Assembly (NCBI RefSeq): GCF_000305935.1
Contig: NC_018870.1
Location: forward strand, 79,942 to 143,941
Source of the DNA: Thermacetogenium phaeum DSM 12270
GTDB lineage: Bacteria > Bacillota > DSM-12270 > Thermacetogeniales > Thermacetogeniaceae
Reading direction: 5' to 3'
DNA: 64,000 bases
Shown: positions 24,600 to 38,227 of the stretch, piece after piece
Layout of the letters: the number at the start of each line of letters is the position of its first letter
How positions within the stretch are numbered: the first letter of the stretch is position 1
Program-made: the position numbers and the translations under genes
Notes under the pieces: generated by a model
What the model saw: only the letters and a program-made list of their open reading frames with translations
Databases searched by the model: none
Told to the model about the DNA's origin: nothing

Positions 24600-25883
24600 C
24601 TACAGGCAGCTTCTTCTCCTCATCAGTTGTGCGGCAGGGTTATTTGCAGTCGAATCTGCTGCCTCCTTTTCAGCGCTGCCCGGCTCCCCGAGAAGGCCGT
24701 TTAACAGCAAAAGGTCGTGCAGCTTAACGGCTACGAAGAGATTGAGTCTGTCCAGAATTCGATCCAGCTGCCTACCCGTCAGTTCCTCGATTTTCTTGAT
24801 CCGGTATCTCAAGGTATTGAAATGCAGAAACATCTTTTGAGCTGCGGCATTGACGTCGAAGTCGGTATCACAGAGCACCCTGAGGGTCTGCAGCAACTCC
24901 CCTTTGGTGGTCCTGTCGTGCTCCAGCAGCCTTCCGAGATTCTCGGCGCAGAACTGCCTGAGCATTGCCGTCTCCTGCAGGTTGATCAATTTAAAAACGC
25001 CGAGGTTGAGGTAGTGGGTGACGCTGTTTTTCTTGCCGGTCAGCTTGGAGATATTAAGCGCGGTGAGGGCTTCCTGATAGCTCTTGTGCAGTTCTGTGAT
25101 TAAATATTTTCTTCCGATTCCGAAGTAAGTAGGTATGTTGAAGCGCTTGGCGATGTCTTTTTGGTGCTTTCTGATATAGCTGAGATAATTGTCCCAGTTG
25201 TCGTCGGATTCGAGGGTTTGCAGGTCATACTTATTGGGACAGATGAAAATGATGTATTTCTCGTTCCAGACCGAGCAGATGACTACATCCTCATGGTATT
25301 TCAACCACTCTAAAGTATGCTTGTAGAGTGTCTCCATATCTGTCTTGGAATCAAGGACCGGCTCCATAATGGACACAAAGTACAGCTTGTCCAGGTCCAG
25401 GCAGTACTTGTTTTGCCGGATCAGCTCCTTGATCTCGCTGGCATTCCAGAGCAGTATGTCTTCGATGAGTTTTTTCTTAAACTGGTGCTCCATATTCTCT
25501 TTTTCATGTGCTATGAAGATGCAGATTTTAACCGCTGTTGCGACTTCTTCCAGATAGGGCAGCCAGGCCGGATACTCTGCTTCACCGGTGTTGCCGATGA
25601 TAATCCAGGCCTCTCCGTCTGAAGAATCGGCGCGGTAATACAGATCTCTCTGCGCGGGATCATAGATAAGTATGCTGTTGCCATTCTGGGGTATGTCGAC
25701 GAAGTGATCGTCCGCTGAAGCCATTTTCACCCCTTCGCTGCAGGCGTAAACCTTGCCGGTGCGGTCGGTGATCCTGACAGGTTTTCCGGTAATGTTGTGA
25801 AGAAAGTTTATCACTGCATCCAGGTTCTTTTTTTCAAGCACCGCTTCGATCCAGTAATTCTCCCCCTGCTTAAGGGCGCTCAA
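24600..25883 (-). CDS. PucR/CdaR-type transcriptional regulator
   Basis: 427 residues from a TTG behind AAAGGGGG; an open frame extends to a GTG at 26015. The N-terminus is a sensor-like domain (NYWIEAVLEKKNLDAVINFL, then ITGKPVRITDRTGKVYA), the middle a GGDEF-like domain (YFGIGRKYLITELHKSYQEA), and the C-terminus the HTH_30 (HFNTLRYRIKKIEELTGRQL). It faces away from the flavoprotein reductase gene at 26444, so it is probably the regulator of that respiratory cluster; the signal may be the reductase substrate. Confidence 0.87.
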   Translation of the reverse strand: MSALKQGENYWIEAVLEKKNLDAVINFLHNITGKPVRITDRTGKVYACSEGVKMASADDHFVDIPQNGNSILIYDPAQRDLYYRADSSDGEAWIIIGNTGEAEYPAWLPYLEEVATAVKICIFIAHEKENMEHQFKKKLIEDILLWNASEIKELIRQNKYCLDLDKLYFVSIMEPVLDSKTDMETLYKHTLEWLKYHEDVVICSVWNEKYIIFICPNKYDLQTLESDDNWDNYLSYIRKHQKDIAKRFNIPTYFGIGRKYLITELHKSYQEALTALNISKLTGKKNSVTHYLNLGVFKLINLQETAMLRQFCAENLGRLLEHDRTTKGELLQTLRVLCDTDFDVNAAAQKMFLHFNTLRYRIKKIEELTGRQLDRILDRLNLFVAVKLHDLLLLNGLLGEPGSAEKEAADSTANNPAAQLMRRRSCL

Positions 25884-26176
25884 TAATCCATACCCCCTTT
25901 CCTGAGAGGTGCCCGTCAACTGACGCCTCCGATTTGCCGGCACCCATTTCGTGACCTGTTGGAAAGAGTTTATCGACATAAGACGACAAATTTTGTGCCT
26001 ATCTACAATATACACCTCAATTTTTTATCGGACAAGACAAATAGCGGGATCGAGGCTCGGATTTTCGAAAAAAGTAAAGGGTCCAACAAGGATGATGATC
26101 TGGAAGCGCTGCGGCGGGGTGCTTGTGGGTGATAACAACGCTATAGAGATGCCCGCACCACCTTGTTGAATATAAC

Positions 26177-26443: not shown

Positions 26444-28102
26444 ATGGAGGAAGCCAAAAAGGGTATTTCGCGGAGAAGTTTTCTTAAAGGCGTGGCGGTC
26501 GGCGCTGCGGGGATAGCTGCGGCCGGAGCCTTGGCCGGGTGCGGAGAGGAGACCGGTACGAAGACACCTCCGAAAGAGGGGGAAGAGCCGAAGAAGCTCA
26601 GCTTTGAGGTGCCGCCGGAGCCGATTCCGGAGAAGGACATCAAGGAAACGGTAACGGCGGATGTGGTGGTGGTCGGAGCCGGTTTGGCAGGGTTGTGTGC
26701 GGCTCTCTCGGCCGCCGAGGCGGGAGCCAAGACCGTCGTCGTTGAAAAGAGGGAAACTTTTACCGCCAGAGGGATGCATAACGCTGCCGTCGGCAGCAGG
26801 GTTCAGAAAAAACTGGGGATTGAGATCGACAAAAGGCAGGCCGTCAGAGATATAGTCAAATGGTGCGGGAACAGGGTCAAAGAAGAGCTCCATTGGTTGT
26901 TCGTTAATAAGAGCGGGGAGTGCATGAACTGGCTGCTCGACATGACGGAAGCTGAGGGCATTACCGCCGAAATGTGGGCGGCTCATTACAAGGGACCCGA
27001 CTACTATGAATATCCGGTCACCCACATCTTCGTCGGAGGCCCCAATGCAGCGAAATTTGCCCATAATGTCGATGTGGCCACCGTTTTGGAGAAGAACGCC
27101 AAGAAGAAAGGTGTAGATTTTTATTACAAGACTCCGGCAGAACAGCTGATCAGGCCGGATAACGGTCGCGTTGGAGGAGTCATTGCCAAGAACGAAAAGG
27201 GAGAGTACATCCGCTTTGAGGCGAAGAAGGCCGTTATTCTGTGCGCCGGGGATTATTCCGGGGACAAGGAGATGCTGGAGTACTACTCCCCGATGGCGCT
27301 GCGGGCGGATGCCTATGTCTATACCCCTGTTGGGGTAAACACCGGAGACGGGCACAAAATGGGGATGTGGATAGGTGCCGCTATGCAGCAGGATTATCCT
27401 CATCCGGCTATGATCCACACTCAGGCGGGTGCCTGGAGTTACTGCTTCCTTCACGTCAACAAGCACGGCTACCGCTACGAAAATGAGGATAAAACGGCTC
27501 AGGCCGTATGCATGTCCAAAATGATGCAGCCGGATAACATCGGTTGGGCGGTATATGACAGCAAGTTCCTGGATCTGCTTCCCGAGACGATAAAAATAGG
27601 CGGCGGGATGTTCTGGGATCAGGTCAACCGTACCTGGGGTAAGCCCTTTAATAAAGAAGCCGAACGGGCGATGCTGGAAAGGCACATTAAGCAGGGGCTG
27701 GTGGTTACGGCAGACACCATCGAAGAACTGGCACAGAAGATGAAGGTGCCATCTGAAAACCTGAAGGCTACGGTGGAGAGGTACAATCAGCTGGCGGTCA
27801 TGAAAGACGATGTCGATTTTGGCAAGAGATCTGAGTTGCTCTTCCCGATCGATAAGCCGCCGTTCTACGCCGGGCTGATGAAGAGCGCTCTTCTTGTGGT
27901 GGTAGGCGGCTTGTGCGTCAATGCCAAGATGCAGGTGCTCGACAAGAAGGGGAATGTCATTCCCGGGCTCTACGCTGCGGGGAACAACGCCGGCAGTTTC
28001 TTTGCTCAGGATTATCCCACCATCTTCCCAGGCCACAGCCATGGAAGATGCATTACCTTCGGTCGCCTTGCCGGACAGTACGCTGCAGCGGAAAGGGTTT
28101 AG
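26444..28102 (+). CDS. Tat-exported lipoprotein flavin reductase, FAD_binding_2 family (paralogue 1)
   Basis: 552 residues. Twin-arginine signal SRRSFLKG followed by lipobox LAGC, so it is folded, FAD-loaded and anchored outside. FAD-binding VVVVGAGLAGLCAALSAAEA and C-terminal YAAGNNAGSFF. Such proteins use FAD to reduce unsaturated acids or similar acceptors with electrons from cytochromes. The usual fumarate-reductase motif GxNRxGG is replaced by AQDYPTIFPGHSHG, so fumarate is unlikely; the acceptor is unknown. First of a cluster with a paralogue and a pentaheme cytochrome. Confidence 0.88.
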   Translation: MEEAKKGISRRSFLKGVAVGAAGIAAAGALAGCGEETGTKTPPKEGEEPKKLSFEVPPEPIPEKDIKETVTADVVVVGAGLAGLCAALSAAEAGAKTVVVEKRETFTARGMHNAAVGSRVQKKLGIEIDKRQAVRDIVKWCGNRVKEELHWLFVNKSGECMNWLLDMTEAEGITAEMWAAHYKGPDYYEYPVTHIFVGGPNAAKFAHNVDVATVLEKNAKKKGVDFYYKTPAEQLIRPDNGRVGGVIAKNEKGEYIRFEAKKAVILCAGDYSGDKEMLEYYSPMALRADAYVYTPVGVNTGDGHKMGMWIGAAMQQDYPHPAMIHTQAGAWSYCFLHVNKHGYRYENEDKTAQAVCMSKMMQPDNIGWAVYDSKFLDLLPETIKIGGGMFWDQVNRTWGKPFNKEAERAMLERHIKQGLVVTADTIEELAQKMKVPSENLKATVERYNQLAVMKDDVDFGKRSELLFPIDKPPFYAGLMKSALLVVVGGLCVNAKMQVLDKKGNVIPGLYAAGNNAGSFFAQDYPTIFPGHSHGRCITFGRLAGQYAAAERV

Positions 28103-28118
28103 ATTCATTGATATCAAG

Positions 28119-28157
28119 AGCTCTCACCCCCTTCGTGGGATGGAGGGGGTGAGAGCT
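28119..28157 (+). terminator. Strong hairpin after flavin reductase 1
   Basis: AGCTCTCACCCCC / GGGGGTGAGAGCT, 13 bp, 13-nt loop, then TTGCTTTCGCTTTC. It may terminate or stabilise the upstream mRNA. Confidence 0.6.
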
Positions 28158-28428
28158 TGCTTTCGCTTTCGGGGCAGGTAATGGTTAATACCTTCAAAAA
28201 GCGGTCGGGCTTCTGGAGCGGTGTTCTCGCTTGCCGTTAGCGGTTTCTAGCGGCTGTTTGCCCAGAGTATCGAGAGGATGTGGATTGAGGTTCTGGGGGG
28301 CGATCTTCAGACCTTAGACGAACTTCTTTATTGATTTTTGCAAGTTATCGCCCTTGTTGTTGCAGCCAATACGCAATCGGGTTCTCCTTACTTGCTATTA
28401 CAACTTAAGTATTCGAGGGGGAGGAAAG
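28158..28428. other. Intergenic region between the two flavin reductases
   Basis: About 270 bp. No gene and no confident promoter seen. The long spacing suggests that paralogue 2 has separate control. Confidence 0.35.
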
Positions 28429-30090
28429 ATGGAAAAGGAGAACAAAAAGGGGATTTCGAGGAGGACTTTCATCAAGAGCATGGCTGTTGGCGCTGCTGGC
28501 GTAGCTGCGGCCGGAGCCTTGGCTGGGTGCGGAGAGAAAGAGCCTTCAACTTCCGGCGGTGCGAAAGCCGAAAAGGAGGCCAGATACAGCTTTGAAGTTC
28601 CGCCGGAACCGATTCCGGCAAAGAACATCAAAAAGACTTTAGAGGCCGATGTCGTTGTTGTCGGTGCCGGACTGTCCGGTCTGTCGGCCGCCGTCCGCGC
28701 CAGGGAAAAGGGGGCGAAAGTCATCGTAATCGAGAAGGGCTCGAGCTGGACCGGTCGCGGCGGCCATTTCGGGGTCGCTGAATCCCGGGTTATGAAAAAG
28801 ATGGGGATCGTCAATGACAAAAAAGAGATCGCCAGGGCTTGGATCGCCCAGTGCGGCAACAGGGCCAACGAAGAGCTGGTCTGGCTTTTTCTCAACAGGA
28901 GCGGCGAAGCCATGGACTGGCTGCTTGACAAAGCCGAGGCGGCGAATCTGACAGTAGGTATTCTGGACGCCTATTACAAAGGGCCGACGTATAGGGAATA
29001 CCCCGGTACCCATATGTTCCTCGGCGGGCCGATGATGAAAGAAGGCAAAGAGCCGGGGCAGGACGTCAGCCTGCTCCTCTACAATGAAGCCAAGAGGCTA
29101 GGTGTTGAGTTCTACTTCAAGACACCCGGTGAGCAGCTGGTGAAAGAAGGCAATCGGGTGGTAGGAGTTATTGCCAAAGCTGAGGACGGCTACTACCGTT
29201 TCAACGCCTCTAAGGGGGTAGTCCTGGCAACCGGAGATATCGGTGGCGACAAGGAGATGTGTGAGGCTCTTGCGCCATTGGCCCTCAAGGCCAACGGATC
29301 TCAGTATTACCCGGTCGGACAAAACACGGGGGACGGGCACAAAATGGGTCTCTGGGTAGGCGGCACCTTTGAGGACCCGCCATTCGCAGCCGTGATCCAT
29401 CCTCAGGCGTTCTCCTGGCTGAGCTATTTCTTCCTCTTTGTGAACCAGCAGGGGAAGCGCTTTATGAACGAAGATACCTGGGTGCAGGCCAAGTCGCTGG
29501 GTGCCATGAGGCAGCCGGGAAAAGGCCCGTGGGCATTCGTCATCTTCGATTCCAAGTGGCCGGAAGAGGTTGCGGCGAGTCTCCCGATAGGGGGCGGCAT
29601 GTTCTGGGATTCCATGGGCCGGCTCGTCGGCCAGAAGTGGACACCGGATGCCGACCGCAAGACCATTGAGGGCTATATCGAAGGGGGCAAGATCGGCTGG
29701 ATGGCCGATACTATTGAGGAGCTTGCCGGGAAGATCGGGGTTCCTGCTGAGAATCTCAAAGCCACCGTGGAGCGCTACAATGAGCTTGCCAGAGCTAAAA
29801 ACGACGTCGACTTCGGCAAGCGCTCCGAGCTGTTGACGACGATCGAAAAGCCGCCTTATTATGCCCTCAAATTCGGAGGCGCCCTCCTGGTGGTTACGGG
29901 AGGCCTGAACGTGGACGTCAAGTTGCGGGTCCTAGATAAAGATCATAACCCGATTCCCGGGCTTTACGCAGTCGGCAACGTTTCAGGTGGTCTATACGGT
30001 GTAGACTATCCGACCACGATCCCCGGCAACAGCCATGGGAGAGCGCTCACCTGGGGTTATTTGGTCGGATCTACGGTGATGGAAGGGTAA
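28429..30090 (+). CDS. Tat-exported lipoprotein flavin reductase, FAD_binding_2 family (paralogue 2)
   Basis: 553 residues; ATG behind GGGGAGGAAAG. Same design as paralogue 1: SRRTFIKS twin-arginine signal, LAGC lipobox, VVVVGAGLSGLSAAVRAREK, and C-terminal YAVGNVSGGLYGVDYPTTIP then GNSHGRALTWG. Again no GxNRxGG. The conserved tail is closer to ketosteroid-dehydrogenase-like members than to fumarate reductase. The two paralogues differ through the substrate domain, so they may accept different compounds. The pentaheme cytochrome gene follows at 124 bp. Confidence 0.88.
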   Translation: MEKENKKGISRRTFIKSMAVGAAGVAAAGALAGCGEKEPSTSGGAKAEKEARYSFEVPPEPIPAKNIKKTLEADVVVVGAGLSGLSAAVRAREKGAKVIVIEKGSSWTGRGGHFGVAESRVMKKMGIVNDKKEIARAWIAQCGNRANEELVWLFLNRSGEAMDWLLDKAEAANLTVGILDAYYKGPTYREYPGTHMFLGGPMMKEGKEPGQDVSLLLYNEAKRLGVEFYFKTPGEQLVKEGNRVVGVIAKAEDGYYRFNASKGVVLATGDIGGDKEMCEALAPLALKANGSQYYPVGQNTGDGHKMGLWVGGTFEDPPFAAVIHPQAFSWLSYFFLFVNQQGKRFMNEDTWVQAKSLGAMRQPGKGPWAFVIFDSKWPEEVAASLPIGGGMFWDSMGRLVGQKWTPDADRKTIEGYIEGGKIGWMADTIEELAGKIGVPAENLKATVERYNELARAKNDVDFGKRSELLTTIEKPPYYALKFGGALLVVTGGLNVDVKLRVLDKDHNPIPGLYAVGNVSGGLYGVDYPTTIPGNSHGRALTWGYLVGSTVMEG

Positions 30091-30214
30091 AAATGAGAGC
30101 AGCCCGCTTTAAAGAATAGAGGAAGTCTTTAAAAGCGACGCCGATCTGGCGAAAATAACTTCGAAATAAACAGAAAGGTGGCTTTCGGCCATCCTTGTTG
30201 GAAGGGGATGTAGA

Positions 30215-30769
30215 TTGGCTGTGGAAGTGAAAAATAGCGAAAGTCAGGCAAAGAAAAGAGCATTTCTAACGCCGAAAAGGATCCTGATAGTTGTTGGTGT
30301 AGTGCTGGCTTTGGGTGTGGTCGGAGCGATCGCCTTGAATCAGCTCAGCAAAAACCCGGCATTTTGCGGCACCTGCCATATCATCAAGCCGTACTATGAG
30401 AGCTGGAAGAACAGCAACCTGCTCGCCAACAAACACGCCGCTCAGGGTGTCGAGTGTCTGGACTGCCACCACAAGAGCTATCTGGAAAAAGCCCAGGAGG
30501 GCATCAACTACATAACGGGCAACTACTCGGAGCCGCTGGAGAAGTTGACGTTCACGAGGGAGCAGTGCCTGGAGTGCCACGAAGAGGATTATGAGCAGGC
30601 GGTGGCTGCCACCGAATTTGAGGAATCAAACCCTCACGATTCTCACATGGGCGAGATAGAGTGCACCCAGTGCCATCAGATGCACGACAAATCCAAGGTG
30701 ATGTGCTCCCAGTGCCACACCTTTAGCTGGTTCGAAGAACTCGATGACAGCTGGGAGATTGAAAGCTGA
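30215..30769 (+). CDS. Membrane-anchored pentaheme cytochrome c, NapC/NirT type
   Basis: 184 residues, TTG start behind GGAAGGGG. One N-terminal membrane anchor (about 22-43), then five CxxCH heme sites: CGTCH, CLDCH, CLECH, CTQCH, CSQCH. NapC-type cytochromes pass electrons from menaquinol to exported reductases. Position right after the two Tat flavoproteins makes it their likely electron donor; ccsA/resB nearby would attach the hemes. Confidence 0.93.
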   Translation: MAVEVKNSESQAKKRAFLTPKRILIVVGVVLALGVVGAIALNQLSKNPAFCGTCHIIKPYYESWKNSNLLANKHAAQGVECLDCHHKSYLEKAQEGINYITGNYSEPLEKLTFTREQCLECHEEDYEQAVAATEFEESNPHDSHMGEIECTQCHQMHDKSKVMCSQCHTFSWFEELDDSWEIES

Positions 30770-30823: not shown

Positions 30824-30857
30824 AAAAGCCAGTCTCTTTTTGGGCTGGCTTTTTTTA
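30824..30857 (+). terminator. Intrinsic terminator after the cytochrome gene
   Basis: AAAAGCCAG / CTGGCTTTT followed by a T-run. Confidence 0.85.
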
Positions 30858-30970: not shown

Positions 30971-31089
30971 ATAAATAATAGGCGATTGAAGGTGTTGCTC
31001 CGGCGGAAGATTACCGGCGAGTGGCGGTTTGCTGGTAAGTAAAGATCTCTGACATTGATAATTTCATAATGATACTGTATCTCCGAGTC

Positions 31090-31179
31090 GTTATTGCCTA
31101 AAGACGCGCCGGCGTCCATGGCATTTCGACCTGGGCAACCACGGGGTATATTGAGAAATCGATATGCCTACCATGTTTG
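31090..31179 (+). promoter_or_regulatory. Putative sensor (aptamer-like) part of a leader RNA
   Basis: Foldable region: GACGC-GCCG-GCGTC hairpin near 31104-31117, then GGCAACC, and a 9-bp stem GGTATATTG / CGATATGCC with a 6-nt loop at 31145-31168. It lies directly before an antiterminator/terminator pair. The class was not recognised; a metal or cofactor ligand fits the downstream transporter. Confidence 0.45.
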
Positions 31180-31237
31180 TAAAGGAGATTCAGGGATTTG
31201 GGAAGATATCCTGGTGTCCTTTACACCAGGATTTTTT
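31180..31237 (+). terminator. Mutually exclusive antiterminator/terminator
   Basis: Terminator: ATCCTGGTGT (31208-31217), loop CCTTT, ACACCAGGAT (31223-31232), TTTTT. Antiterminator: TAAAGGA (31180-31186) can pair with TCCTTTA (31217-31223), and CAGGGAT (31191-31197) with ATCCTG (31208-31213), which would dismantle the terminator. It ends 20 bp before the permease start. Confidence 0.8.
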
Positions 31238-31257
31238 GTTCCAGGAGGCTTTTTTGA

Positions 31258-32307
31258 ATGCAACCTGTCCTTTTGTGCAGAATAATGCGGCTCAAGACGA
31301 CAACCGTCTGGTGGAATTATTTGCTGCTGTTCATAACGCTGCTGGCACTGATATTTATTTCACTGCTTTTAGGAAGATATCCGATTACACCCGAACAGAT
31401 CGTAGGGATTCTGAAAGCCGAACTGTTTTTTAGCGATCGGGCTGTACCTGATACGGTGAGCACCGTCTTTATGGAGATACGCCTGCCGCGGATTATAGCT
31501 GCCCTGCTGATTGGAGCGGCATTATCCGTTTCGGGAGCTGTCTACCAGGGGACCTTTAAGAACCCGATGGTATCCCCGGACATACTGGGGGCGTCGGCGG
31601 GAGCGGGTTTTGGGGCTGCCCTGGCGATCCTTTGCTCATGGGGCATGAAAGGAATTCACATTGCCTCCTTCGTCTGCGGACTGCTGGCCGTATTCCTGAC
31701 CTATTTTATAAGCACCCGGATCAAGAGCGGGGATTCGAGTCTGATACTGGTGCTCACAGGAATTTTTGTGGGGACGGTTTTCTCCTCCCTGATCTCCTTG
31801 TTCAAAGCCGTAGCCGACCCCTACAATAAGCTCCCTGCAATCACATACTGGCTGATGGGAAGCCTGGTATCGATAAAGTGGAGCAGCATAAAACTGATGA
31901 TCTTACCCGTACTCACAAGCTCCATAGTGCTGTACCTGGTCCGCTGGCACTTAAACATAATCTCTTTTGGGGACGAAGAGGCACAGGCGCTGGGAGTGGA
32001 CACGGGCAAGTTAAGGATAATCGTTATCCTGTGCGCCACCCTGTTAACCACCTCGGCGGTTTCGGTCAGCGGGATGATCGGCTGGGTGGGACTGGTCATA
32101 CCCCATCTGGCCAGAGCCCTTATAGGGCCGGACTACCAGAACCTGTTGCCGGTCTCAATCTTAGTAGGGGGCTCCTTTCTCCTGCTGGTGGACACCATGG
32201 CTCGCTCCTTACTGCCGATGGAAATACCCTTGGGCATCTTAACCTCATTAATAGGAGCGCCATTTTTCCTATACCTATTAACAAAAACAAGGAAGGGTTG
32301 GAGATGA
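31258..32307 (+). CDS. FecCD-type ABC transporter permease (second system)
   Basis: 349 residues, about 10 membrane helices. Hallmarks: RLPRIIAALLIGAALSVSGA, KNPMVSPDILGASAGAGFGA, GWVGLVIPHLARALIGPDY. AGGAGG precedes the ATG by 9 bp. It overlaps the ATPase gene by ATGA. It is controlled from a sigma-54 promoter and an attenuating leader. Gene order here is permease-ATPase-binding protein, unlike the first system, so the two operons are not simple duplicates. Confidence 0.93.
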   Translation: MQPVLLCRIMRLKTTTVWWNYLLLFITLLALIFISLLLGRYPITPEQIVGILKAELFFSDRAVPDTVSTVFMEIRLPRIIAALLIGAALSVSGAVYQGTFKNPMVSPDILGASAGAGFGAALAILCSWGMKGIHIASFVCGLLAVFLTYFISTRIKSGDSSLILVLTGIFVGTVFSSLISLFKAVADPYNKLPAITYWLMGSLVSIKWSSIKLMILPVLTSSIVLYLVRWHLNIISFGDEEAQALGVDTGKLRIIVILCATLLTTSAVSVSGMIGWVGLVIPHLARALIGPDYQNLLPVSILVGGSFLLLVDTMARSLLPMEIPLGILTSLIGAPFFLYLLTKTRKGWR

Positions 32308-33086
32308 AACTAAAACTGCAGGACCTTGCCTTTGCGTATGAAAAGAACAACGAAGTGCTGCGCGGCGTGACCCTGGAAGTAGAATCAGGAGAAGTCCTCT
32401 GTCTGTTAGGTCCAAACGGAGCCGGGAAGACGACCCTCTTTAAAAGCATCTTGGGCTTACTGAAGCCGTCGAAGGGGAAAGTACTCATTGACGGCAAAGA
32501 CGTTCGCGATTACCCCCGAAAAGAACTGGCGCATTACCTGGGCTATGTACCGCAGAACCACATACCGCCGTTCCCCTTCCGGGTGCTCGAAGTGGTACTC
32601 ATGGGGAGGACGGCCCACATCAACAACTTTGCCGTGCCTTCGACCGTAGACGTCGAAATCGCCCGGGAAGCCATGAGGCGCTTGAACATCGGCCACCTGG
32701 AAAACAGAAACTACGCTGAAATAAGCGGAGGCGAGAGGCAGTTGGTCCTGATTGCCCGTGCTTTGGCCCAAAAGCCGGGGATTCTGGTTTTGGACGAACC
32801 CACATCCAACCTGGATTTCGGAAATCAGCTGCGCATCCTAAGACACATCAAAAGATTGGCCGAAAGCGGACTGACCGTAGTGATGTCCTCCCACTTTCCC
32901 GAACACGCCTTCTATTGCGGCAGCAAAGTGGCGGTAATGCAAAAGGGGCGGATTATCCATGTGGGCAGGCCGGAGGAGGTGATCACCGGACAAAATCTAA
33001 AGGAAATTTACGGAGTCGAGGTTGAGGTTGCCGAAATAGAAAGGAAAGGGATCAACTACCGGGTATGCATTCCTTCGGTTGTCTAA
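32304..33086 (+). CDS. FepC-type ABC transporter ATPase (second system)
   Basis: 260 residues. Walker A GPNGAGKTT (36-44), Q-loop VPQNH, signature ISGGERQ, Walker [13 protein letters not shown], switch His in SSHFPEHAF. It energises the permease encoded just upstream. Confidence 0.95.
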   Translation: MKLKLQDLAFAYEKNNEVLRGVTLEVESGEVLCLLGPNGAGKTTLFKSILGLLKPSKGKVLIDGKDVRDYPRKELAHYLGYVPQNHIPPFPFRVLEVVLMGRTAHINNFAVPSTVDVEIAREAMRRLNIGHLENRNYAEISGGERQLVLIARALAQKPGILVLDEPTSNLDFGNQLRILRHIKRLAESGLTVVMSSHFPEHAFYCGSKVAVMQKGRIIHVGRPEEVITGQNLKEIYGVEVEVAEIERKGINYRVCIPSVV

Positions 33087-33172: not shown

Positions 33173-34264
33173 ATGATGAAAAAGATAATTGCCGTTCTTT
33201 GCTGTCTGGTTATTATCTTATCGGCCGCAGGATGCGGTGAAAAGACAGGAAACGGGAACAGCAGTGCCGGCAGCGAGGAAAATGTCAGTGTGGTTGACAT
33301 GGCCGGGCGAACGGTAACTGTTCCCAAGAAAATAAACAAGGTGTTTTCGACTTCTGCAGCCGGCGCTATTTTTATCTATTCTCTGGCACCGGAGAAGCTG
33401 GCAGGATGGAATAACGAACTGCGTGAGGTCGAAAAAAAGTACATCCTTCCTGAGTACCGGGAGCTGCCGGTGTTAGGGACGTGGAAAGGAACCAATTTTA
33501 CCGGGAGCATAGAGGAACTGATGAAGGTTGCCCCTGATGTCATCATCAGTATGGGCGATGTGAGCCCCAAGTATACAGCAGATGCTGAAGAAATAGAAAA
33601 ACGCTTGGGGATACCGGTAATAATGGTTGACGGGAGCCTCAAGAACCTGGATCAAGCGTACGAATTTGTAGGAAAACTGCTGGGTGAAGAAAGCAGGGCT
33701 CAAAAGCTGGCGGAATACTGCAGCCACACCTATGCGGAAATCGATCGCTGGCTTCAAAAGCTGCCCGAAAACGAACGCGTGCGCCTCTATTATGCCGAAG
33801 GGCCGACCGGATTGGAGACCGACATCAAAGGGACGGTCAATTCAGAGGCCATTGACCTCGCCGGAGCGGTTAACGTGGCTACTTCCGGCTTAGATGAAAA
33901 CGTCCGCCGGATCCAGGTTTCTATCGAACAAATATTGACGTGGGATCCAGAAGTGATCATCATCAGCACCGATGCCGATGCCAAGCACGAAGTTTATAAT
34001 ACCATTCTCACGAGCGGCGAATGGAAAGGTGTCAGGGCGGTGCAAAACCAAAAGGTCTACGAAATTCCCTGCGAACCCTACGACTGGATCAGCCGGCCTC
34101 CCTCAATATTTAGAATACTCGGCGTGAAGTGGCTGGCGAACCTCTTGTACCCTGATCTGTACGAAGTAGACCTGATCGAAGAAACCAAACAATTCTATAA
34201 GGAGTTTTTCCATTATGAACTGACCGACCAAGAGGCGGCAAAACTGCTGAATCCGGTTGTTTAG
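33173..34264 (+). CDS. ABC transporter substrate-binding lipoprotein (second system)
   Basis: 363 residues. Lipoprotein signal with lipobox SAAGC (Cys about 22). TroA-like class III fold: VVDMAGRTVTVP, STSAAGAIFIYSLAPEKLAG, VAPDVIISMGDVS. The C-terminal DWISRPPSIFRILGVKWLAN stretch is typical of binding proteins found with molybdoenzyme and corrinoid genes. The ligand may be tungstate/molybdate-chelate, iron or a corrinoid. Confidence 0.87.
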   Translation: MMKKIIAVLCCLVIILSAAGCGEKTGNGNSSAGSEENVSVVDMAGRTVTVPKKINKVFSTSAAGAIFIYSLAPEKLAGWNNELREVEKKYILPEYRELPVLGTWKGTNFTGSIEELMKVAPDVIISMGDVSPKYTADAEEIEKRLGIPVIMVDGSLKNLDQAYEFVGKLLGEESRAQKLAEYCSHTYAEIDRWLQKLPENERVRLYYAEGPTGLETDIKGTVNSEAIDLAGAVNVATSGLDENVRRIQVSIEQILTWDPEVIIISTDADAKHEVYNTILTSGEWKGVRAVQNQKVYEIPCEPYDWISRPPSIFRILGVKWLANLLYPDLYEVDLIEETKQFYKEFFHYELTDQEAAKLLNPVV

Positions 34265-34291
34265 AACTGCGGCTTGTGTGGTGGCAGTGCT

Positions 34292-34807
34292 ATGAAAAAT
34301 GTGTTTTTGACCGGAGAGAGGAAAATCGGCAAGAGCACCATCATCAAGAAAGCGCTGGAGGCCTTTAAGGGATCTCTGGGTGGGTTCAAAACAGCACCCT
34401 GCTTCCTGGGAGACGGGTCAAAAAGGTATACCATTGAAGGCTTGAACCCGATTTTCCGGGGAGAAGCCCGGTGGATCTGCGTTGATAACGGTGAAGGCAG
34501 AATGATCGGCCTGGCCGGGACTTTTGAAGATTATGGTGTTCGCATCCTAAAGCACAGCCTGAAAGAAAGGCCTGACCTGGTCATCATGGACGAACTCGGC
34601 TTGTTTGAATCGGAAGCCATTAATTTCCAAGAGCATGTTTTCGACCTGCTGGGATCGCCGCTTCCTGTGCTGGGAGTGCTCAAAGCCGCAAGCAGCTCCT
34701 TCCTGAACGAAATCAGAAACAGGCGGGATGTGATCATTCTTCCTGTCACCGGGGAAAATCGTGACCTACTGGCCGAGAAAGTGGCGGGGTGGCTGCAGGA
34801 CTTATAA
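34292..34807 (+). CDS. THEP1-type P-loop nucleoside triphosphatase
   Basis: 171 residues from the ATG; an in-frame GTG at 34274 is possible. Walker A GERKIGKSTI (8-17), Walker B PDLVIMDELGLFE, and C-terminal VITGEN-like LPVTGENRDLL. The COG1618 family hydrolyses NTPs in vitro and its biological role is unsettled. It recurs with Fe-type transporters and molybdoenzymes in anaerobes, so a role in cofactor or metal handling is plausible. It closes the transporter operon. Confidence 0.82.
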   Translation: MKNVFLTGERKIGKSTIIKKALEAFKGSLGGFKTAPCFLGDGSKRYTIEGLNPIFRGEARWICVDNGEGRMIGLAGTFEDYGVRILKHSLKERPDLVIMDELGLFESEAINFQEHVFDLLGSPLPVLGVLKAASSSFLNEIRNRRDVIILPVTGENRDLLAEKVAGWLQDL

Positions 34808-34999: not shown

Positions 35000-36001
35000 T
35001 TGTTAGCAAGCGATATCAGGCGAATCGTGGATAGGGCAAGGGCAGGAAAGCAGCTTGGTCCCGATGAAATCGGAGAATTGTTTTCTGTCCCCCTGGTTTC
35101 AGAGGAAGCGTATTATATACAGTATGTCGGTCGTGAAATGAGCCGGGAGGCTTCCGGCGGTAAGGCGGAAATCCACGCCCAGATCGGCATAGATAATCAG
35201 GCCTGTCCGAATAACTGTGAGTTTTGCTCATTTGCCGCCTGTAACGGCGTTTTTAAAAAGCCCAGCATTGCCTCCCTGGAAGAAATACTGGAAAGGGCAC
35301 GGGATTTTGAAAAAAACGGAGCCAATGCCATCCTCTTGATGACTACCGTTGCCTTTCCCTTTGAAGACTTTATAGTAATAGCCAGGGAAGTAAAAAGACA
35401 CCTTCAGGAGGACACCGTTCTTATAGCTAACCTGCCGGATTTTGGCTATCAGGAGGCCATGGCCCTTAAAGATGCCGGTGTCAATGGGATCTACCATGCG
35501 GTCAGACTGGGGGAAGGAGAAGTCACCCGGATTGAGCCGGCGAAAAGATTGAATACGATCAAGGCGGCAAAGCAGGCTGGTCTTAAGGTATGTACCTGTC
35601 TGGAGCCTGTTGGCCCGGAGCATACGATTGAAGAGCTGGTGGAAAAAACCTTGATCTGCAGGGATATTGAGCCTGTATTTTCCGGGGCGGGCCGGCGTAT
35701 AAGTGTCCCCGGCTCCAGGCTGGAGCGCTTCGGAATGGTGAGTGAGGCGCGGATGGCGCTGTATGTTGCCGTGGTGCGGCTGGCGATGGGTTACGGTGCC
35801 CCCTTGAACTGTACGCATGAGCCCAATGTGCCCGCTGCCATCGCCGGAGCCGATATCATCTGGGCTGAAGCCGGGACCAACCCCCGCGATACGGACCAGA
35901 AGACAGAAAAGAGCAGGGGATTTAACGTCCAGAGGTGCCGCCAGATTTTTAAAGAGGCGGAATGGGAAGTGTATGAAGGGCCCTCACAGTATTTCCTATA
36001 A
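35000..36001 (+). CDS. BioB/HmdB-like radical SAM enzyme
   Basis: 333 residues, TTG start behind AAAGGGG. The radical SAM cluster is Cys69, Cys73 and Cys76 (ACPNNCEFC). It has a BioB-like layout with GVNGIYHAVRLGEGEVTRIE and CTCLEPVGPEHTIEELVE. It is too short and lacks the biotin-synthase auxiliary-cluster residues, so sulfur insertion into biotin is unlikely. It is 39 bp upstream of a molybdopterin oxidoreductase under the same sigma-54 promoter, which suggests synthesis or modification of a cofactor or substrate used by that enzyme. Confidence 0.85.
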   Translation: MLASDIRRIVDRARAGKQLGPDEIGELFSVPLVSEEAYYIQYVGREMSREASGGKAEIHAQIGIDNQACPNNCEFCSFAACNGVFKKPSIASLEEILERARDFEKNGANAILLMTTVAFPFEDFIVIAREVKRHLQEDTVLIANLPDFGYQEAMALKDAGVNGIYHAVRLGEGEVTRIEPAKRLNTIKAAKQAGLKVCTCLEPVGPEHTIEELVEKTLICRDIEPVFSGAGRRISVPGSRLERFGMVSEARMALYVAVVRLAMGYGAPLNCTHEPNVPAAIAGADIIWAEAGTNPRDTDQKTEKSRGFNVQRCRQIFKEAEWEVYEGPSQYFL

Positions 36002-36040
36002 TCCGGGTAGCGAATATCAACAAAGGGAAAGGGTTTGTTG

Positions 36041-38227
36041 ATGGGGGAAGTCAAAAAGGTGGCTTGCAACTTATGCCACAAGAGCTGCGGAATGCTCGCC
36101 TGCTTGGAGAACGGCGCAATCGTGGAGATCGCCGACGATCCCGACTACCCTTTTAATAAAGGAGCGCAGTGCTCAAAAGGAGCTTCGGCCCTGGAAGAAT
36201 TAGACCACCCGAACCGCATCAACTACCCCTTGAAAAGGGTAGGGGAGAGGGGCTCGGGTGAATTCACAAGGGTGAGCTGGGAAGAAGCCCTTGACGATAT
36301 CGCCGGGAAGCTGGAGCGGCTCAAGAAGGAGTACGGTGCCGAAGCGATATCGACGATAGGTGGAACCAACCGGACCGATGACTTTGCCAGGAGGCGCTTC
36401 TTCAACCTGCTGGGCAGCCCCAACGTTGCCCATACTGTTCCGGCCTGCTGGATACCCAATTTCCTGATCGAAGCGGCGTCCTACGGTTGGGGCGCCTGTG
36501 ACAATAATGTTGCGGGGGGAGCCAGGTGCGCCGTCATCTGGGGTTACAATCCGGGAGCCACCTATGTCAATGAGATGGAAAAAATCCTCCGGGCCAGGGA
36601 GACCTTCGGCACCAAGATCATCGTTATTGATCCTCGCTTCAGCGAGACTGCGGCGAAAGCGGATTTATGGTTACCGATCAGGCCGAACAGCGACAACGCC
36701 TTAGCGTTGGCGTGGCTCAACGTTATCATCAACGAAGGTCTGTACGATGCGGAATTCGTGAGCGAATGGACGGTAGGCTTTGGGGAGCTGGCGGAGCGGG
36801 TAGAGGAATACACTCCGGAATGGGCAGCGGAGAAGACGGGGGTATCGGCGGAACTGATAGCGGAAGCGGCGAGGATGTACGCCACATCGAAGCCGGCCTG
36901 TCTCATGTGGGGAGTAGCCACCGACCAGCTGGGTAGGGGGAGCACGGCTGGGGCGCAGGCGAGGGTAGCGCTGCGGGCGATCTGCGGCAACCTGGACGTA
37001 CCGGGAGGGGACGTCATGCCGGGGCCGCACCCCACCTTCATCACCGACTGGGAAATGGAACTCAACGAAAAGCTGCCGGAAGAACAGAGGGCGAAGCAGT
37101 TGGGGTCGGACCGGTTCAAACTCAACAGCTGGCCGGGGTACCGGCTGATCAGCGAGAACCTGGAGCGGGTGTGGGGGAAGAGCATACCGGCCGAATGGTT
37201 CTGCGAAGCGAATCCTCCGGTACTGTTTCGGGCGATGGCGACGGGGGAACCGTATCCGGTCAAAGCGGCGATAGTTTTGGCGGACAACCCGTTGGTATCC
37301 TACGCCAACACGAAATTAGTCTATCAAGCCTTAAAGAGCTTAGAGCTGCTGGTAGTCATGGAATACTGGATGACGCCGACGGCGGTGCTGGCGGACTACG
37401 TCCTGCCTGCGGCCTCCTGGCTGGAGAGGCCGGTGCTGACGACCACCTACGGGGTATCGGACTGGCTGATAGCGTCGGAGCGGGCGATTGAACCCTTATA
37501 CGAACGGAAAACGGACTACGAACTCTGGAGGGAACTTGGGCTGCGGCTGGGGCAGGGGGAATACTGGCCGTGGGAGAGGGAGGAAGAAGTCTTCAAGCAC
37601 CGGCTGGAGAAGCTGGGCTATGAAATTGAGAGCTACGAAGAATTCGTTCACAACTACCGGTACGACTTTGCGCCCAGGGAATACAGGAAGTATCTGGAGC
37701 GGGGTTTTGCGACGCCGTCGGGGAAGGTGGAGCTGAAGAACTCCATACTGGAGAAGCTGGGATACGACCCGCTGCCGCACTATGTGGAGCCGCCGTTCAG
37801 TCCCGAAGCCAGGCCGGAGCTGGCCGAAGACTACCCGCTCGTCTTAATCACCGGCGGCAGCTTTCAGGGCGGCAAAAAGAGAAATGAAAAAAAGGCATTG
37901 CCGGAGGAGCCGACGGTCGCCATTAATCCGCAGCTGGCAAAGGCGCTGGCCGCGCAGGAGGGTGACTGGATCTGGATTGAAACGCCCGTCGGAAAGGTCA
38001 GGCAAAGGGTTATGATCACCGATGCCGTAGCGCCGGGTGTAATTCAGGCACCAAGGGGGCGGTGGTTTTCTGAAAGAAAGGCGGATGCGGACGACATAGC
38101 CAGGATCTTTGAGTTCAACATCAACGTCTGTCTGGATGACGACCCCGATACCTGCGACGAGGCCTGCGGCAGCTGGTGTACGCGCGGGGTCCTCTGCCGG
38201 GCCGAGAAGGTTAATAAAGAGGAGTAG
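36041..38227 (+). CDS. Molybdopterin oxidoreductase, DMSO-reductase family (paralogue A)
   Basis: 728 residues. The N-terminal [4Fe-4S] site is Cys9, Cys12, Cys16 and Cys44. Cys136 in VPACWIPN is in the place of the Mo/W ligand, as in thiosulfate/polysulfide-type enzymes. The MGD-binding RFSETAAKADLWLPIRPNSD and the C-terminal tail with five cysteines (NVCLDDDPDTCDEACGSW, then RGVLC) are present. No Tat signal, so it is cytoplasmic. The ATG aligns exactly with that of paralogue B (offset 5570). Residues ~189-600 are almost identical in DNA to paralogue B while both ends differ: a conversion tract. The redox substrate is unknown. Confidence 0.92.
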   Translation: MGEVKKVACNLCHKSCGMLACLENGAIVEIADDPDYPFNKGAQCSKGASALEELDHPNRINYPLKRVGERGSGEFTRVSWEEALDDIAGKLERLKKEYGAEAISTIGGTNRTDDFARRRFFNLLGSPNVAHTVPACWIPNFLIEAASYGWGACDNNVAGGARCAVIWGYNPGATYVNEMEKILRARETFGTKIIVIDPRFSETAAKADLWLPIRPNSDNALALAWLNVIINEGLYDAEFVSEWTVGFGELAERVEEYTPEWAAEKTGVSAELIAEAARMYATSKPACLMWGVATDQLGRGSTAGAQARVALRAICGNLDVPGGDVMPGPHPTFITDWEMELNEKLPEEQRAKQLGSDRFKLNSWPGYRLISENLERVWGKSIPAEWFCEANPPVLFRAMATGEPYPVKAAIVLADNPLVSYANTKLVYQALKSLELLVVMEYWMTPTAVLADYVLPAASWLERPVLTTTYGVSDWLIASERAIEPLYERKTDYELWRELGLRLGQGEYWPWEREEEVFKHRLEKLGYEIESYEEFVHNYRYDFAPREYRKYLERGFATPSGKVELKNSILEKLGYDPLPHYVEPPFSPEARPELAEDYPLVLITGGSFQGGKKRNEKKALPEEPTVAINPQLAKALAAQEGDWIWIETPVGKVRQRVMITDAVAPGVIQAPRGRWFSERKADADDIARIFEFNINVCLDDDPDTCDEACGSWCTRGVLCRAEKVNKEE

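Follow-up and report, generated by a model that had tools for sequence, protein, structure and literature searches.

In the 64,000-nucleotide stretch of the Thermacetogenium phaeum DSM 12270 genome analyzed here (the window), the leader RNA ahead of a FecCD-type ABC importer is, with a probability of about 0.86, a P3-bearing molybdenum cofactor (Moco) riboswitch that would act by transcription termination, Moco turning off the genes of a MolBC-A-like molybdate importer in end-product feedback. An Rfam scan of the whole window returned two matches, a tRNA and the Moco/Tuco riboswitch family RF01055, the latter on the forward strand at 31069-31203 with a score of 72.1 bits, twice the gathering cut-off of 36 bits (E 1.9e-15; cmscan, all 135 model positions); the leader was also recovered, as L006, in an RF01055 search of its own genome. 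The original prediction had matched the leader to no known class and had proposed a covariance-model search against Rfam as a check, and it is this search that supplies the class. The foldable region of about 90 nt that it described is indeed foldable but longer, with the 5' strand of P1 lying outside the interval first considered (31090-31257), and its sensor of the imported metal or cofactor survives as a cofactor-sensing, riboswitch-type leader before an importer, the predicted ligand being the molybdenum cofactor and not a metal ion. The elements of the aptamer are as follows.

31069-31203 (+), Moco riboswitch aptamer (RF01055), P3-bearing form; cmscan, full model 1-135
31079-31084 (+), P1 5' strand (AUCUCC), partner 31184-31189; RF01055 alignment, MFE fold, covariation in 15 leaders
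31087-31130 (+), P2 and tetraloop-receptor-like internal loop (CCUAA...AUGG); RF01055 alignment, covariation
31132-31141 (+), P3, a 3-bp stem (UGG-GCAA-CCA), marker of the Moco-type subgroup; RF01055 alignment, changes in relatives
31144-31169 (+), P4 with GAAA tetraloop (31155-31158); RF01055 alignment, fold, covariation
31170-31180 (+), P5, outer pair A31170-U31180; paired in 14 of 15 leaders, with all four Watson-Crick types

Alignment and covariation place P1, P2, P4 and P5 around the conserved junction in the RF01055 layout, and the leader fold lies at z = -4.7 relative to shuffled sequences. Both the GNRA tetraloop on P4 and its receptor in P2 are present, the receptor having A/C where the closing G/U is expected. 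As the class is described in the main text of its founding paper (PMC2408646), the leader shares with it the P1-P5 architecture, the GAAA tetraloop on P4, the conserved junction, the position before a molybdenum gene and, with some of the published cases, a terminator-type platform; it differs in its minimal, 3-bp P3, in the outer pair of P5 (A-U instead of C-G), in the receptor (CCUAAA/CAUGG instead of CCUAAG/UAUGG) and in the controlled transporter, which is modABC there and a FecCD-type importer here. According to the same text, direct binding of Moco was not shown, the cofactor being unstable (PMC2408646). Judged by its sequence, the leader is a well-supported, ordinary member of this known class.

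Comparison of 15 FecCD-associated leaders provides additional evidence. In the aptamer helices P1-P5, 26 of 37 pairs are changed on both sides, the pairs being those of the Rfam model as transferred to the sequence of the window, a procedure toward which the percentage of paired cells leans but from which the double changes do not follow. The covariation score over the same leaders, 0.564 compared with 0.204 for shuffled alignments (0 of 500 as high), is far above that of any slid register. The outer pair of P5 is C-G, G-C or U-A in relatives, with a single mismatch among the 15 (in L094), and P3 shows U-A/C-G/G-U changes, with UGGG/CCCA or CGGG/CCCG stems in some relatives. The nearest orthologue (L093/L055, permease 88% identical) keeps both aptamer and platform, and a P3-bearing RF01055 element lies directly upstream of the orthologous permeases in L093-L098 and L155. 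The original prediction had made covariation in homologues its own test, and the covariation found supports an RNA structure. A leader bound by a protein, either an antiterminator protein or an attenuator, and having no aptamer is extremely improbable; a terminator with an alternative hairpin would, taken alone, fit such a leader, and we rejected it on the full-length RF01055 match, with its conserved junction, GAAA tetraloop and five covarying helices.

Downstream of the aptamer, and partly overlapping it, lies the expression platform.

31178-31199 (+), antiterminator 5' half, overlapping the P5 3' strand and the P1 3' strand (31184-31189); growing-transcript folding, covariation with the terminator loop
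31204-31225 (+), antiterminator 3' half, drawing on the 5' arm of the terminator, its loop and the start of its 3' arm; growing-transcript folding, permutation test
31208-31232 (+), intrinsic terminator hairpin, its 10-bp stem free of mismatches and its loop 5 nt long, followed by a T-run; scan, conserved in L093/L055

The T-run stops 20 nt short of the permease ATG at 31258, and in L093/L055 a G-C pair of the terminator stem has become A-U, a compensatory change. In the predicted fold of the antiterminator, 31178-31186 pairs with 31217-31225 over 9 bp (UGUAAAGGA/UCCUUUACA), and a second pairing joins about 31188-31199 to 31204-31215; this structure alone is predicted at -20.6 kcal/mol for an RNA ending at 31226. 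When the growing transcript was folded, using predicted energies that are ligand-free and exclude kinetics, the aptamer with P1 was the best fold up to about 31214, other folds won at about 31218-31230, with the antiterminator best from about 31222, and the terminator together with the restored aptamer was best from about 31234. Bases 31184-31186 are common to P1 and the antiterminator, and 31179-31180 to P5 and the antiterminator, so that the platform is coupled to P1; the antiterminator also competes with the terminator through overlapping segments. A promoter scan gave matches no better than shuffled sequences give.

The coupling can be followed in other leaders at base 31180, whose changes are matched by its partner in P5 and, in the terminator loop, by its partner in the antiterminator: the two pairs are U-A in the window and in L093, C-G in L098 and L130, A-U in L159 and L170 and G-C in many others, and in L094 the U-A pair is kept for the antiterminator only. 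In a set of 22 non-redundant leaders whose terminators could be detected, pairing of the aptamer 3' segment is on average stronger with the terminator of the same leader than with those of other leaders (mean -12.6 versus -9.5 kcal/mol), and none of 20,000 permutations gave a value as low as the true pairing, some of the detected hairpins being false. It should be noted that the detector demands at least six uninterrupted pairs, that it missed the mismatch-bearing terminators of L095-L097 and that in L094 it settled on a spurious hairpin within coding sequence; such misses and false hairpins weaken the permutation test and do not favour it. The platform had been anticipated: the original prediction had a 10-bp terminator stem with a T-run 20 bp before the permease, borne out at 31208-31232, and a competing antiterminator made by 31180-31186 and 31191-31197, both of which fall inside the predicted 31178-31199 segment. 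Folding and the permutation test likewise support its proposal that antiterminator and terminator are mutually exclusive.

We propose that, when Moco is scarce, RNA polymerase would complete 31178-31225 before P1 is locked, and the antiterminator would form and block the terminator, allowing the permease, ATPase, binding protein and NTPase genes to be transcribed. Bound Moco, the predicted ligand, would stabilize P1 and P5, which would then hold 31179-31189; the antiterminator could not form, the terminator at 31208-31232 would fold, and transcription would stop. Since aptamer and antiterminator share 31179-31180 and 31184-31186, a ligand that stabilizes the aptamer should favour the terminator, and we infer an OFF switch. 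The same shared bases make an ON switch, in which the ligand favours readthrough, very unlikely; nothing positive speaks for it, the direction being deduced from structure, and shut-off of an importer by its end product fits OFF. With the importer off when cofactor suffices, and with a likely MolBC-A-like molybdate importer downstream, the OFF switch would amount to end-product feedback on metal uptake.

The genes downstream of the leader are the following, the last of them probably on the importer transcript.

31258-32307 (+), FecCD-type ABC importer permease, MolB-like; Pfam FecCD 3.9e-90, HI1471/MolB 2nq2, E 2e-71
32304-33086 (+), importer ABC ATPase; Pfam ABC_tran 1.2e-33
33173-34264 (+), importer substrate-binding lipoprotein; Pfam Peripla_BP_2, HI_1472/MolA among solved relatives, E 4e-15
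34289-34807 (+), THEP1-type NTPase (NTPase_1); Pfam PF03266 1.7e-24

As in MolBC-A of Haemophilus influenzae (HI1470-HI1472), the permease has the FecCD fold, with HI1471 its closest relative in sequence, and an ABC ATPase and a Peripla_BP_2 binding protein lie in the same cluster. MolBC-A takes up molybdate, MolA binds both molybdate and tungstate, and molB is repressed by molybdate via a factor reported as unknown (PMC4031551), whereas here there is a riboswitch leader. Unlike its counterpart, the binding protein is only distantly MolA-like: HI_1472/MolA comes fifth among its solved relatives, behind two unnamed proteins at the top, which leaves room for tungstate, a different oxyanion or a chelate as the substrate. 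The proximity of the permease to MolB nevertheless makes molybdate the most likely imported metal, and sequence comparison thus points to a MolBC-A-like importer. We regard as improbable an importer of a corrinoid, of haem or of an iron chelate that the riboswitch merely ties to cofactor demand. Importers of these kinds do belong to the FecCD family, and the BtuC and FhuB models give the permease its best NCBIfam scores, but among solved permeases HI1471, which serves molybdate, is nearest (244 bits, compared with 179 for FhuB and 127 for BtuC), and in many Firmicutes RF01055 elements are found repeatedly ahead of permeases of this group. The NCBIfam names BtuC and FhuB were rejected for the permease, every score being below the curated cut-off.

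Further downstream, a BioB-like radical-SAM gene (35000-36001) precedes a molybdopterin oxidoreductase gene (36035-38227) whose best solved relative, over the full length, is acetylene hydratase (2e7z, E 1.1e-133), a tungsten enzyme; the protein has His after the second CxxC cysteine, a position occupied by Asp in acetylene hydratase. The acetylene-hydratase-like gene is set apart from the importer genes by a gap of 193 nt that contains a possible promoter (TGCTATACT); despite this gap, the radical-SAM and acetylene-hydratase-like genes may share the importer transcript. Directly upstream of the leader, 26444-30769 encodes two flavocytochrome-type FAD reductases and a NapC/NirT-type multihaem cytochrome; these genes are preceded by a PucR-type regulator (24600-26015, reverse strand) and end in a terminator at 30824-30853.

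In the main text of the founding paper, P3-bearing RNAs are tied to Moco and P3-lacking RNAs to the tungsten cofactor (PMC2408646), and the window leader has the P3 mark in its minimal form. The T. phaeum genome (2,939,057 bp, single contig) holds 12 RF01055 copies, four with P3 and eight without, the P3 status outside the window being a visual judgement based on sequence and length. The P3-bearing copies precede MobA/MoeA, XdhC-DUF364-FecCD, MoeA/MoaA and the importer described here; those lacking P3 precede TupA-like, TupBC-like, ModAB, NADH-type formate dehydrogenase, aldehyde dehydrogenase, sigma-54 regulator and NiFe hydrogenase genes, and one has no sense gene. With ModABC behind a P3-lacking copy, the P3 split is imperfect, unless that importer serves tungstate. 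RF01055 was found in all 20 family genomes, in up to 16 copies, many of them followed by FecCD permeases. On a tree of 41 FecCD permeases, built by a quick method and including some long branches, the P3 label needs 7 changes compared with 14 after shuffling (0 of 500), and all eight rows of the window permease clade are P3-bearing; the P3 state is thus clustered on the permease tree but has switched several times.

These data bear on whether the same RNA class and platform might instead sense the tungsten cofactor and control tungstate import, which is unlikely given that the aptamer carries P3, the mark tied to Moco in the main text of PMC2408646, that its permease clade is uniformly P3-bearing and that the P3-bearing copies in T. 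phaeum precede Moco-biosynthesis and XdhC genes, even though the organism, with its eight P3-lacking copies and Tup-type transporters, probably uses tungsten, MolA binds both oxyanions (PMC4031551) and an acetylene-hydratase-like gene lies nearby. In L149 (6695-6811), a P3-lacking switch precedes a permease nested among those of the P3-bearing L135, L153, L157 and L159; this is a recent loss of P3 and a natural pair for Mo/W specificity.

Several other copies show unusual contexts. Two divergent P3-lacking copies, L078 (G000 C1:2190463-2190580, forward) and L077 (C1:2190043-2190162, reverse), precede, one each, an NAD-type aldehyde dehydrogenase (PF00171), a type of enzyme without a Mo/W cofactor, and a sigma-54 PAS/GAF regulator; in the aldehyde dehydrogenase copy, the terminator pairs with the 3' end of the aptamer. 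A tungsten-cofactor switch on a tungsten-free aldehyde dehydrogenase would resemble B12 switches on metE. The P3-lacking L080 (G000 C1:658206-658324, forward) lies 322 nt before the small subunit gene of a NiFe hydrogenase, which needs neither Mo nor W. This is probably the periplasmic hydrogenase Tph_c06350-06370, reported to be constitutively present (PMC6895022). L082 (G000 C1:341221-341344, reverse), also lacking P3, has its own terminator and no gene in the sense direction, pointing instead at the 3' end of an opposite-strand, 1086-aa helicase-like ORF; we propose that it is an orphan or antisense-acting switch. Tandem P3-bearing Moco riboswitches occur in L098 (23-160 and 312-446), L109 (5285-5419 and 5580-5718) and L086 (G003:C15:175129 and 175439), and in L098 both switches, each with its own terminator, precede one FecCD permease.

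The founding paper of 2008 already described the class, its terminator-type platform and its connection with molybdenum transport, and also made the P3 proposal, which it based on gene context (main text of PMC2408646). Control of a FecCD-type importer is not named in that main text, and a search of the open literature gave no other report of RF01055 control of FecCD-type importers; we therefore claim a new member of RF01055 and no new variant. A leader first read as unmatched becomes a named sensor, and a likely substrate, molybdate, is assigned to an importer that would pass in annotation for a permease of iron complexes or B12. It is possible, and we suggest it only tentatively, that the FecCD-type (MolBC-like) importers of Syntrophomonadaceae and mostly Firmicute relatives form a large and so far unremarked Moco/Tuco-riboswitch regulon in which the presence or absence of P3 tells molybdate from tungstate paralogues. 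If so, paralogues of opposite P3 state, for example G007:C157, which has P3, and G007:C44, which lacks it, would test whether P3 sets Mo/W specificity, sister importers with and without P3 serving as matched pairs for discrimination between Moco and the tungsten cofactor.
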